A stretch of 64,000 nt of DNA, from positions 1 through 64,000 of the forward strand of contig QHSX01000046.1 in the NCBI GenBank assembly GCA_003221695.1, given 5' to 3'. The translations under genes were made by a program, and so were the position numbers. This DNA comes from Candidatus Rokuibacteriota bacterium (GTDB taxonomy: Bacteria; Methylomirabilota; Methylomirabilia; Rokubacteriales; CSP1-6). Below are positions 1,087-4,454 of this stretch, one piece after another; the first letter of the stretch is position 1; each line of letters begins with the position of its first letter. The notes beneath the pieces are model-generated. The model searched no databases. It was not told the origin of the DNA and saw only the letters and a program-made list of their open reading frames with translations.

Positions 1087-2472
1087 CTAGATCATGAGCG
1101 ACGGCATCCTCGGAGCAGATCGGGGTCTCGAGTGGCACCGGGCCGTGGCACCCGGCGTTGAAGTTCGTGAAATCACTAGCCACGGGCTCGCCCTCTCAAG
1201 ACCGAGACGCGGGTTCGAATCCCGCTGATGGGGCCACCAGCTTATTTGGGCGGCGCCGGGTTTGCCGCGGCCGGTGTCCTGCGGTGGTTGTAATGGTCTA
1301 TGACACGTGCTGATATCGAGCGCCTGAGCCGAGAATACTCGGCAGGAGAACCCAGAGAGGGCCGCCTCGCCAGAGCACTTCAGGTAGACATACCGGTCTG
1401 GCGCGAACTCGGCGACGAGATCTTCCGCGACCTGGATCATCACGTCTTCGGCGTCGGCTGGTGGGCGCCAGGCCCTGGCACATCGCGTCGCGTACTGATC
1501 AGCGACCACCTCTACAGCTGTGTTCGTGGCGTCGAGCCCAATCTCATCCTTGTCGAGCGAGAGGTGAGTACGAGCCCGGTGGTAGTACGCGAAGTAGCGA
1601 GTCAGGGTGCGGCGCAGGTGCCGTTCGCCGAGGACGAGGACGTGATTCAGACACTCGCGCCGGATGGAGCCGGTGAGCCGCTCCGCGAAGGAGTTCTGCC
1701 ATGGGCTGTGAGGCGCCGTTAGGACTTCACCGACGCCCATGCCCTTCACGCGTTGCCGGAACACGTGAGCGTAGACCGAGTCGCGATCGCGGAGGAAGTA
1801 GGACGGAGCGGAGTCGTCCGGGAAGGCGTCCACGATCTGCTGGGCGGTCCAGACAGCGGTGGGATGCTCGGTGACATTGAAGTGGAGGACGCGCCGGCGG
1901 TCGTGGGCGAGCACGACGAAGACGAACAGAACGCGCAAGCGCGCGGTGGGAACAGTGAAGAAATCGATGGAGACGAGGTCCCGGACGTGATTGGTCAGGA
2001 ACGTGCGCCACGTCTGCGACGGCGGTGAGCGGCGCTTCGGGAGCAGGCGGGAGACGGTGCGCTCAGCGACGTCGATGCCGAGCTTGAGGAGTTCGCCATG
2101 GATTCTGGGAGCACCCCACAGGGGATTGGCCGCGGCCATCCTTCTGACCAGGGCTTTGATCGCGGCGTCGACGGGCGGGTGGCCCGCCGGGCGGCGCCCG
2201 GAAAGCGTGGCCCAGTGGCGGCGAAAGCGGCGTCGCTGCCAGCGCAGCACAGTGGCGGGAGTCACGATGACGAGGGCCTGCCTCCAGGCGGGCCACACTC
2301 TAGACAGCCAGACCCAAAGGAGCCGATCGCTCCGTTGGAGCTTCGGCCGGTTCACCCTCCGCTTGTAGACGGCCAGTTGCTGCCGCAAAGCAAGGTTCTC
2401 GAGGGCGAGCTGGCGGTGGCTGCCGAACAGGAACGGGATGAGTCGGAGCAGATGGATCAGGAGGATGATCAT
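1087..2472 (-). CDS. DDE (RNase H-fold) integrase-core transposase with abnormal C-terminus
   Basis: The N-terminal 300 residues resemble insertion-sequence transposases of the integrase-core type: LALENLALRQQLAVYKR near the start, the catalytic Asp in VSIDFFTV, a second Asp in FLRDRDS, and Glu in NSFAERLTGSIRRE, ending in RARTHLSLDKD. Family members normally stop soon after this motif. Here the frame runs on for about 150 more residues through unrelated sequence and through the antisense of the tRNA-like fragment at 1187-1240, giving the well-known artefact HQRDSNPRL. The true element probably ended near 1540, and the tail reflects a fusion to flanking DNA. IS481/IS3-like membership is plausible but not proven; no terminal inverted repeat could be assigned with confidence. 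Confidence 0.75.
   Translation of the reverse strand: MIILLIHLLRLIPFLFGSHRQLALENLALRQQLAVYKRRVNRPKLQRSDRLLWVWLSRVWPAWRQALVIVTPATVLRWQRRRFRRHWATLSGRRPAGHPPVDAAIKALVRRMAAANPLWGAPRIHGELLKLGIDVAERTVSRLLPKRRSPPSQTWRTFLTNHVRDLVSIDFFTVPTARLRVLFVFVVLAHDRRRVLHFNVTEHPTAVWTAQQIVDAFPDDSAPSYFLRDRDSVYAHVFRQRVKGMGVGEVLTAPHSPWQNSFAERLTGSIRRECLNHVLVLGERHLRRTLTRYFAYYHRARTHLSLDKDEIGLDATNTAVEVVADQYATRCARAWRPPADAEDVMIQVAEDLVAEFAPDRYVYLKCSGEAALSGFSCRVFSAQALDISTCHRPLQPPQDTGRGKPGAAQISWWPHQRDSNPRLGLERASPWLVISRTSTPGATARCHSRPRSAPRMPSLMI
1187..1240 (+). repeat. tRNA-Glu(CTC)-like 3' fragment, left copy
   Basis: The sequence contains CCCTCTCAAG, like the anticodon loop of tRNA-Glu(CTC), then a perfect T-arm (GCGGG, TTCGAAT, CCCGC) and a 3' end reading GGGGCCACCA. 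No 5' half with a matching acceptor strand is present upstream and the anticodon stem does not pair, so this is a remnant rather than a working tRNA. Bases 1187-1224 recur at 4417-4454 with four mismatches. A 3' tRNA segment repeated at both ends of a foreign block is the classic result of integration at a tRNA gene. Confidence 0.55.
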
Positions 2473-2650
2473 CGGGCTAGGATCTTCTCCGGATCAGAGC
2501 AGACAGATCAACCACTTGCTCACCGGACGGAGTTTTGGCGAAGGACACCCATGGGATGACGACGATTCCGCCAGACGCCGCAAAGAAGGCCCAAGCGGCG
2601 ATTCGAGACAAGTAGCTTGCCGATCACCCTCGACAGTTCAATGAAGAGCG

Positions 2651-2680
2651 CACGAGCGCCGACGCCCACCGGCGCTCGTG
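2651..2680. repeat. palindromic hairpin, copy 1 (REP-like)
   Basis: The arms CACGAGCGCC and GGCGCTCGTG are perfectly complementary over 10 bp around a 10-nt loop. The same arm sequence recurs inside the 14-bp-arm hairpin at 5301-5333. It lies 3' of the small gene at 2722-3033 (minus strand), so it could act as its terminator. Confidence 0.65.
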
Positions 2681-2721
2681 GTCTGTTCCCCCCCGCCTGC
2701 CGATCGCCGCGAGTCTGGTGA

Positions 2722-3033
2722 TTACTCGCTGTCGACTTTTCCGCCTGCGATGATCCGAAGGTTCATGTGGGCGTTGACGAGTACAGCGGGCACGAGCCAT
2801 TCCCGGTACGACTTCCCTTTCTCAGGCCGCTCGTAGGCAGCCAGGGCGTCCTCGTCGAGGTCGAGTTCGACCTCGATAAGGGTGATGTCTATCGTGTCGA
2901 TGTCTACCGGCTGGCTCGTCAGCAACACGCCGGTGTAGCGGTCCGTGGTCCCGAAGGAGCCGGTCGCATCCGTAAAGCCCTTCGCGAGGATTGCCTTAGC
3001 GTTTTTAGCCGTCGTCCGGTGAAAGAGCTTCAT
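2722..3033 (-). CDS. conserved hypothetical protein (103 aa) beginning MKLFHRTT
   Basis: The ATG at 3033 gives a protein starting MKLFHRTTAKNAKAILAKGF and containing VELDLDEDALAAYE and YREWLVPAVLVNAHM. I recall similar short orphan proteins in many bacteria, often annotated only as hypothetical. The N-terminal HRT plus the central Leu/Glu/Asp-rich strand pattern recalls the small ADP-ribosyltransferase-like fold seen in some toxins, but no catalytic triad can be assigned from sequence alone. It sits alone in the accessory block; no antitoxin-like partner is recognised. Function unknown. Confidence 0.65.
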   Translation of the reverse strand: MKLFHRTTAKNAKAILAKGFTDATGSFGTTDRYTGVLLTSQPVDIDTIDITLIEVELDLDEDALAAYERPEKGKSYREWLVPAVLVNAHMNLRIIAGGKVDSE

Positions 3034-3046
3034 CACACCCCGTCTG

Positions 3047-3412
3047 TCAGGACCGTGGGACACGGACCGCGGTATAGCCCAGGGCAGACACTTTTCCACG
3101 GTGCAGGCGCCGTTCCCGCTCGCACCGCTCGACGGCCACATCCCGCCGCTGCTGTCGGCGGTCGCCGTGCCGGCGCTCCATGATCACCTTGACCCCTCCG
3201 ACACCAGCAAGAATCTTCGTGAGGTGCTCGTACAGATCGGTCTCCTTGAACAAGACGACGATCAGGAACTGGACATCAGGAAATGAGCTCGAGGGCAGGG
3301 TAGGGGCGAGGATGTTGGCCTGCGCCCTCTTCCCGGATTCCACTTTCACCTCGAGCGAGTCACACGCCGGATATCCGGAATTGCAAAAGATTTCGAAGTG
3401 TCCGGGCGTCAC
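3047..3412 (-). CDS. hypothetical protein with Arg/Gln-rich motif (up to 121 aa)
   Basis: The frame ends 13 bp before the start of the 103-residue gene, on the same strand. It has hydrophobic core stretches (VQFLIVVLFKE, KILAGVGGVKVIM) and then the basic pattern ERRHGDRRQQRRDVAVERC. That pattern resembles repeated RRxxERR motifs I have seen in small bacterial proteins of unknown role. The last 25 residues look unstructured. The protein may be real but partly decayed, and codon usage is weaker than in neighbouring housekeeping genes. No function can be assigned. Confidence 0.35.
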   Translation of the reverse strand: MTPGHFEIFCNSGYPACDSLEVKVESGKRAQANILAPTLPSSSFPDVQFLIVVLFKETDLYEHLTKILAGVGGVKVIMERRHGDRRQQRRDVAVERCERERRLHRGKVSALGYTAVRVPRS

Positions 3413-4005
3413 CGCTCGCGGGAGCGTAGCACACTCGGTTGGGCGAGTGCGACGAGAGTTCCGCTCTGCGCCCGCGTCTCCTGCACGCCAGGACCTCGAA
3501 GGTAATCTCGGTCGCGCATATCAAGCGGCCAGCGACCGAAGCGTTGTTTCACGACTGTCCATCGACGGCGCTCCGACGTCGCCTTCGTCGTTCTGTGTGA
3601 CGGCTTGGCCGCTCACTTGTTCGCCACGTGATCGAGAGCTGGTCAGGCGGCATCGAGGTCGTCTCGGCCGCGAGCTGCACCGCTCGACGACGCCGGGAGG
3701 GCGGATGCTGAGAAGTATTTTCGCGTCCGTTGCCGGCGTCAGCCCTTTGCGGGCGACCCTTCGAGGCGGAAGCGAATCCTGTCCGCGCAACGCACTGCAC
3801 AAAGACTGATCCAGGTCGTTTTCCACATCCAGTCGCGGTGAATCGGAAGAATCTTCTCGACGTCTGGCTCAGCTTCTATTGAGCCGCTGCCCACCATCTT
3901 GTCTGCTGCCATCACGAGCGTTTTTCCGCGGTCAGCAATCGCCGCGACGCGTACAAGTCTTGAGCGGCCTACCGCAGTTCAGCGGGCAGGGTAAGTCAAG
4001 GCTGC
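3413..4005. other. gene-free stretch inside the accessory block
   Basis: Several open frames cross this region on both strands, but all are rich in Arg/Ser/Pro without hydrophobic periodicity and none resembles a known family. I see no RNA gene, promoter or repeat that I can support here. It is probably decayed sequence. Confidence 0.5.
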
Positions 4006-4167
4006 TCACTGGTCACGTCGGGGGTAGCCCGTTGCCTTCCACCGCCGTCGCCACTGCCGGAACCGCCATTCTCGTTTCACCGTTTCGCCGAAGGCCAATG
4101 GGATGCCCAGCAGCAGGACGCTGGCAACGACCACGGCCACCAGAATCCAGCCTCCGGTATGGTTCAT
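4006..4167 (-). CDS. small single-pass membrane protein (53 aa), hypothetical
   Basis: Starting at the ATG at 4167, the product begins MNHTGGWILVAVVVASVLLL. It has one strongly hydrophobic helix (about residues 7-26) followed by a basic, Trp/Arg-rich tail (KREWRFRQWRRRWKATG), the topology of a small inner-membrane protein with a cytoplasmic C-terminus. No neighbour suggests a role. It could also be a chance open frame, although the clean hydrophobic-then-basic layout argues for a real gene. Confidence 0.4.
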   Translation of the reverse strand: MNHTGGWILVAVVVASVLLLGIPLAFGETVKREWRFRQWRRRWKATGYPRRDQ

Positions 4168-4416
4168 CGTCGCGCGTTGGGTAACCGCCTCAGCAGTAAG
4201 GGGCGGCAGAGGTAGCCGGGTGGGCCTCAATCTGGCGGGTATCCATTCGCACGGAGATCATAACCTACGCTGCTCAAGGCGCAGGAGAGCTTGAAGGCGC
4301 CGGCGGCAGAAGATGTCGGAGGAGACGACGCCGACGCCGGCGAGGAAGTCCACCGAGCAACGTTCTGAGCACTTCGCCTTGTCCAGAATCACCCGACCCG
4401 CCGGGATGGCTCACGT

Positions 4417-4454
4417 CTTGCCCCCTCAAGACCGAGACGCGGATTCGCATCCCG
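4417..4454 (+). repeat. tRNA-Glu-like 3' fragment, right copy (degenerate)
   Basis: This copy matches 1187-1224 at 34 of 38 positions: CCCTCAAGACCGAGACGCGG is shared except for single changes, and the T-loop reads ATTCGCAT instead of GTTCGAAT. Similarity ends at CCCG, just before the acceptor strand. The right boundary of the accessory block is set here. Confidence 0.55.

Follow-up and report, generated by a model that had tools for sequence, protein, structure and literature searches.

In the first 64 kb of a contig from a soil bacterium of the Ca. Rokuibacteriota, two partial copies of a tRNA-Glu(CTC) gene flank a block of accessory DNA. This stretch (the window: GenBank assembly GCA_003221695.1, contig QHSX01000046.1, positions 1 to 64,000) begins the 123-kb contig C44 of the source genome, G000, which comprises 4.6 Mb in 109 contigs. 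The copies are probably (probability about 0.6) attachment sites of integrating elements that target tRNA-Glu(CTC) and accumulate in tandem, with a worn piece of such DNA lodged in a regulator gene in the window. Most likely, the block itself is a fragment of a tRNA-Glu accretion array that was carried along passively and has decayed.

Positions 1187-1224 and 4417-4454 are identical at 34 of 38 positions, and the best match in base-shuffled windows (n=50) reached 25 of 38. Comparison with intact genes in relatives shows that the repeat starts one base ahead of the anticodon loop of tRNA-Glu(CTC) and covers the 3' half of the gene through the CCA. The left copy retains the acceptor end and the CCA, with a 3-nt insertion (CCCGCTGATGGGGCCACCA), and the acceptor end of the right copy is gone. 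Neither ARAGORN nor Rfam detects a tRNA in this region, as is expected of half a gene, and the window has no tRNA. The repeat, its tRNA-Glu origin and the CCA-like end had all been proposed in a sequence-only reading of the window, and each is confirmed. That reading also described a transposase and orphan open reading frames (ORFs) between the copies, a regulator gene cut in half beyond them, and foreign DNA. These are present as claimed. The G+C content of the block is 0.62-0.66, compared to ~0.70 to its right, and the pyrroloquinoline quinone (PQQ)-dependent dehydrogenase and cytochrome genes at the left of the window have no real match in same-genus genomes and 65-70% identity in distant genera.

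The left copy is part of a larger unit at window positions 1074-1239. The repeat extends ~113 nt leftward (1074-1186) into a conserved non-tRNA sequence, here called the right end. This extension, and further copies on contigs C24 and C31 of G000, had been missed by the sequence-only reading. Searched without its tRNA part in 95 genomes of the phylum, the right end gives 22 matches in five genomes, several per genome, and none in the other 90. No significant remnant of it lies left of the copy at 4417. The site-bearing genomes are bins of Ca. Rokuibacteriota that come from a single series of soil samples. Contig C6 of a second genome, G007, carries six copies in 17 kb, all on one strand and one of them internally deleted, and this array lies within 48 kb. 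On the two-copy contigs (G000:C44, G000:C24, G032:C128 and G002:C8), each pair points in the same direction. The intervals between sites are ~1-5 kb. Resemblance among copies remains tRNA-like as far as the CCA, and the DNA following the CCA comprises at least two recurring left ends and some single ones; the left end of the element family reads CTTGTTTTCGTTGA..TTTCCGTCC. The array contigs encode solute-binding proteins, parts of TRAP transporters, luciferase-like monooxygenases and amidohydrolases, and carry insertion sequences. Genes in the modules run in both directions, and some are fragmentary, such as partial luciferase-like copies. The copies are few and all lie in accessory, array-like DNA, rather than recurring throughout the genome without association to an island.

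The possibility that a conserved ORF (DVMKRLEIIE) extends into the right end was considered and rejected. This ORF is a short tail in some copies and is replaced by stops or other sequence in the rest, and the right end was therefore treated as non-coding. The site has no match in viral contigs or plasmids, and the single match in phage records is to a tRNA-Glu alone. At G001:C104:20567-20613, an element-like tRNA-Glu 3' half has a different and unrelated left neighbour, and may mark the terminus of a separate element family with this target.

Two versions of the tRNA half occur. The native type reads AAGGCTGAAACACGGG..CCCGT, and the element type, found in most array copies, reads AAGACCGAGACGCGGG..CCCGC. 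Among element-type copies (n=14), the tRNA half is 97.3% identical versus 88.2% in the adjoining 55-nt flank. Mismatches to the element-type consensus number 9/649 in the half versus 50/746 in the flank (p=3.5e-7, with the relatedness of the copies ignored). Among native-type copies (n=3), the half is 66% identical versus 90% in the flank; right ends followed by these decayed native-type halves are found at G000:C31, G007:C6 and G032:C105. Displaced native halves thus decay, and element halves are kept or renewed along their whole length, including the CCA. Such conservation would be expected if each element has to rebuild a tRNA on integrating, and is less expected of a mere recombination site. 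The element had earlier been described as decayed, which is true of the right copy but not of element-type repeats in general, as these are well conserved across genomes. When joined in silico to a native 5' half, the element-type half is still called as tRNA-Glu(CTC), as is the left copy of the window, with damage to its D-arm/acceptor fit. None of the assembled tRNA genes seen carries an element-type half. A right end with a decayed native-type tRNA-Glu half is also present on the minus strand (~3920-4020) of contig VBLA01000288.1 (DP_23), which is binned as Deltaproteobacteria; this reflects either transfer between phyla or misbinning.

Modules are shared between genera. G000:C24 and G007:C6 come from different genera and have 5,564 bp in common at 99.96% identity, one whole site included; the likeness stops inside the T-arm of another site. 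G007:C25 and G002:C8 share 4,078 bp at 98.7%, and further pairs reach ~97-99.6%. Over the window, backbone identity is 90% to G002 and mostly 75-82% to G007. Because modules are so much more alike (97-99.96%) than the backbone, they appear to have been exchanged recently, unless short contigs are misbinned, which is possible for C24.

In nearly all family genomes looked at, tRNA-Glu(CTC) is the second gene of a tRNA-Gln(CTG)-tRNA-Glu(CTC) pair. Its 3' half is of the same native type in all paired genes looked at, and the DNA that follows varies widely between genomes, as at an integration hot spot. No whole tRNA-Glu(CTC) is present among the 43 tRNA matches in G000. Its contig C84 carries tRNA-Gln(CTG), then the first 29 nt of tRNA-Glu(CTC), and halts at the base where the shared core starts. 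Because assemblers stop at repeats, an array may start where C84 ends, though this is not proof. In G032, an integrase gene directly follows tRNA-Glu, and its repeat is a shorter T-arm segment. This integrase was rejected as the driver of the arrays because of the shorter repeat and because a search of five other genomes found no intact close relative; the best match, in G007, is broken and 71% identical.

Other tRNA genes have left similar traces. Detached 3' halves of tRNA-Lys(TTT), starting at the anticodon loop, are found at G000:C31:17158 (~260 bp from a Glu site) and G000:C81:1347, and a tRNA-Lys(TTT) T-arm fragment is found at G007:C6:22907. The C31 half is followed by ~880 bp that matches, at 96% identity, the sequence following the intact tRNA-Lys on C2, and both contigs end there. 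Integrase genes are located just downstream of tRNA-Arg(TCG), tRNA-Leu(CAG), tRNA-Ala(GGC) and tRNA-Lys(CTT) on G000 contigs C28, C70, C16 and C29, respectively. Many tRNA genes of G000 seem to be used as integration targets. The Glu fragment is thus one among several tRNA-derived sites, with pieces of different targets lying side by side, and passive relocation of array pieces is therefore plausible.

In the window, the block interrupts a protein gene. From position 4557, the sequence matches the 3' part of an NtrC-type (sigma-54) response-regulator gene that is whole in G002, G003 and G004 and uninterrupted to the contig limit in G007; DNA downstream of the gene in these relatives is as in the window. 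The 5' part in G000 lies at C88:13922-16362 and is followed by ~200 bp of unrelated DNA to the contig end. Apart from 26 bp in G003, nothing elsewhere in the family matches this left tail of the insertion. Because the gene is uninterrupted in relatives and its 5' part is on C88, the block lies within the regulator and not at a tRNA, and the PQQ and cytochrome genes to the left of 1074 belong to it. The earlier proposal of integration at a tRNA gene here is therefore not upheld, and the tRNA-Gln/tRNA-Glu locus is on C84. Nor do relatives have the empty site that had been predicted, with PQQ-dehydrogenase and regulator adjacent: at the break, the foreign side carries the PQQ and cytochrome genes, and in relatives the regulator's own 5' half takes that place.

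A 20-bp overlap of the two regulator parts falls on the Walker B codons (TVFLDE) and reads GGACGGTGTTCCTGGATGAG versus GGACCGTCTTCCTCGACGAG. The overlap is identical at 16 of 20 positions, all four differences are synonymous, and each copy matches G002 at 18 of 20. Chromosomal sequence runs up to TTCCT on the left and from TTCCT on the right. We infer that this junction looks more like an attachment core imperfectly common to element and gene than like a fresh target duplication.

These observations suggest the following course of events. An element would bring its own tRNA 3' half, from the anticodon loop onward, and integration would renew the 3' half of the gene and move the old half to the far end. 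Repeated integration at one core would build up head-to-tail arrays, with a small cargo module in every interval and, at every junction, a right end, a tRNA 3' half and the next left end. We infer a tyrosine recombinase acting in trans and a crossover in the anticodon loop. An array piece most likely reached the regulator gene by a different integration or by a rearrangement at the 20-bp imperfect Walker B match, and would afterwards have decayed and acquired its insertion sequence. Several results weigh against this explanation. No tyrosine-integrase (PF00589) match was found on any repeat-bearing array contig, nor was a complete autonomous element. The assembled tRNA-Glu(CTC) genes of G002, G007 and G032 are of native type, so no array is seen to lie directly at the gene in these genomes; their arrays may lie elsewhere or further downstream. 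The in-silico hybrid tRNA has one C-A mismatch in its anticodon stem. Finally, the ends of C88 and C44 in the regulator gene could not be joined here, and since both contigs end, one insertion is indistinguishable from a rearrangement.

The small modules without an integrase, their single site direction, the conserved element-type halves and the recent sharing across genera, with some likeness ending inside a site, could also reflect a cassette system. Here, the tRNA-derived sites would recombine in their own right, and a recombinase acting in trans would insert and remove modules as in an integron, independently of the tRNA gene. We consider this unlikely. Module genes run in both directions and some are fragments, the site folds no better than shuffled sequence (z-scores -1.8 to +0.6, with no attC-like structure), and conservation spans the whole tRNA half to the CCA, which a cassette core would not need. 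Slightly more doubtful still is the wider version, a system shared by Rokubacteria in which, at a distance from the tRNA gene, one trans-acting recombinase uses a ~120-300 bp tRNA-Glu-derived site to collect metabolic modules of 1-5 kb and exchange them among soil genera. If true, a tRNA attachment site would have given rise to a functional equivalent of the integron.

A multi-copy sequence of ~120-300 nt with varying neighbours might instead be a dispersed mobile or duplicated repeat, e.g., a tRNA-derived miniature element, unrelated to site-specific integration. This is improbable, since every copy on a contig has the same direction, copies are found on array-like contigs, on short ones or close to the ends of contigs, and the difference in decay between native and element halves fits integration. 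An artefact of assembly or binning, through false joins at repeats or foreign contigs in bins, has a similarly low probability. In its favour, most copies lie on contigs <20 kb, and C24 and part of a contig from another genus are nearly identical. However, the contig with the window copy measures 123 kb, and its backbone has 85-90% identity to same-genus genomes, the G007:C6 array is contained within one 48-kb stretch, and the regulator break is seen independently from both sides, with foreign flanks that have no long exact stretch in common with the break. Least probable is one ordinary event, in which a single element integrated at a tRNA-Glu gene here and decayed, and the tRNA gene was lost. 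Two direct copies do flank a foreign block beside a broken gene. This account is already disfavoured by the intact regulator of relatives, which have no tRNA here; moreover, the tRNA-Gln/Glu pair lies at another locus, with the 5' half on C84, both repeats have further foreign DNA on their outer sides (1-1073 and 4455-4556), and the left copy is preceded by a right end.

Table 1. Features at the left end of the window, in order of position.
Position	Strand	Feature	Remarks
1-1073	+	PQQ-dependent dehydrogenase, C-terminal part (to 598), and small cytochrome c gene (602-961)	Pfam PQQ, Cytochrome_CBB3; accessory cargo left of first site
1074-1186	+	Conserved non-tRNA right end of element family	91% to G007:C25; query without tRNA part
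1187-1239	+	Element-type tRNA-Glu(CTC) 3' half, anticodon loop to CCA	3-nt insertion
1240-1544	+	DNA after CCA	First bases CTTATTT..GGGTTTGCCGCG resemble left end after other copies (by eye)
1545-2548	-	Insertion sequence, rve_3 / IS3- and IS481-like transposase	80% over 1004 bp to G007:C110; 95% over 469 bp to G007:C29
2722-3141	-	Orphan ORF, 139 aa	No family match
3142-4416	.	Stretch with no recognisable gene	No recognisable relatives in loci examined
4417-4454	+	Decayed element-type tRNA-Glu 3' half	Acceptor end lost
4455-4556	.	Foreign DNA reaching regulator-gene break	No match in relatives
4557-5242	+	NtrC-type response-regulator gene, 3' part (AAA+ from Walker B, lid, Fis-type helix-turn-helix)	95% to G002:C108

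C44 starts at window base 1, within the PQQ-dependent dehydrogenase gene. The transposase ORF spans 1087-2472, and the portion below ~1545 is not transposase. After the regulator gene, at 5301-5333, is a near-perfect G+C-rich hairpin (CCACGAGCGCCGAGGTACGCTCGGCGCTCGTGG), and its stem sequence recurs inside the foreign block at 2650-2681. A tandem pair of related small secreted-protein genes (89% over 377 bp) occupies 5353-6738, and the second of these has internal repeats (240 bp at 92%). A tandem duplication of ~1.27 kb with 75% identity is found at 26166-27435 and 27509-28778.

The right end with its tRNA-Glu 3' half is a searchable marker of recent gene exchange in uncultured soil Rokubacteria, and the array may account for the assembly break at tRNA-Glu(CTC). 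The window also illustrates that a tRNA fragment beside a foreign block does not by itself place the block at a tRNA site. A literature search found nothing specific on integration in Rokubacteria. The feature is of a known kind, recognised here in soil Rokubacteria.

Integrative and conjugative elements (ICEs), integrative and mobilizable elements (IMEs) and cis-mobilizable elements (CIMEs) undergo tandem accretion, in which head-to-tail units are parted by attachment sites and some units have no integrase. The Rokubacteria arrays have the same layout, and as in CIME-like accretion, several same-direction attachment sites bound units without an integrase. They differ in having up to six small metabolic modules in 17 kb, with no transfer genes among the proteins scanned. 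The likeness is one of array layout, and kinship with ICEs or IMEs is not implied. PMC5704250 and related papers use the term accretion for these elements. For Salmonella genomic island 1, tandem integration is known at a secondary attachment site (PMC2297512). Both systems have arrays and a secondary chromosomal site, but Salmonella genomic island 1 targets thdF, has its own integrase and was shown experimentally. Integron cassette arrays similarly have repeated one-direction sites between small accessory modules. Unlike these, the Rokubacteria site has no attC-like fold, genes run both ways, and no integron integrase lies beside the array, as the search for tyrosine recombinases covered the array contigs and found none. 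Genomic islands mapped by Islander (PMC4383910) integrate into tRNA genes with a tRNA 3' fragment as the core, an element-borne half able to restore the tRNA, and a displaced native fragment at the far end. The Rokubacteria elements share the core and the displaced native fragment, and their element-type half is predicted to restore a tRNA-Glu(CTC), with one stem mismatch in the in-silico hybrid; they differ in that the array contigs have no integrase and the block in the window does not adjoin a tRNA gene.

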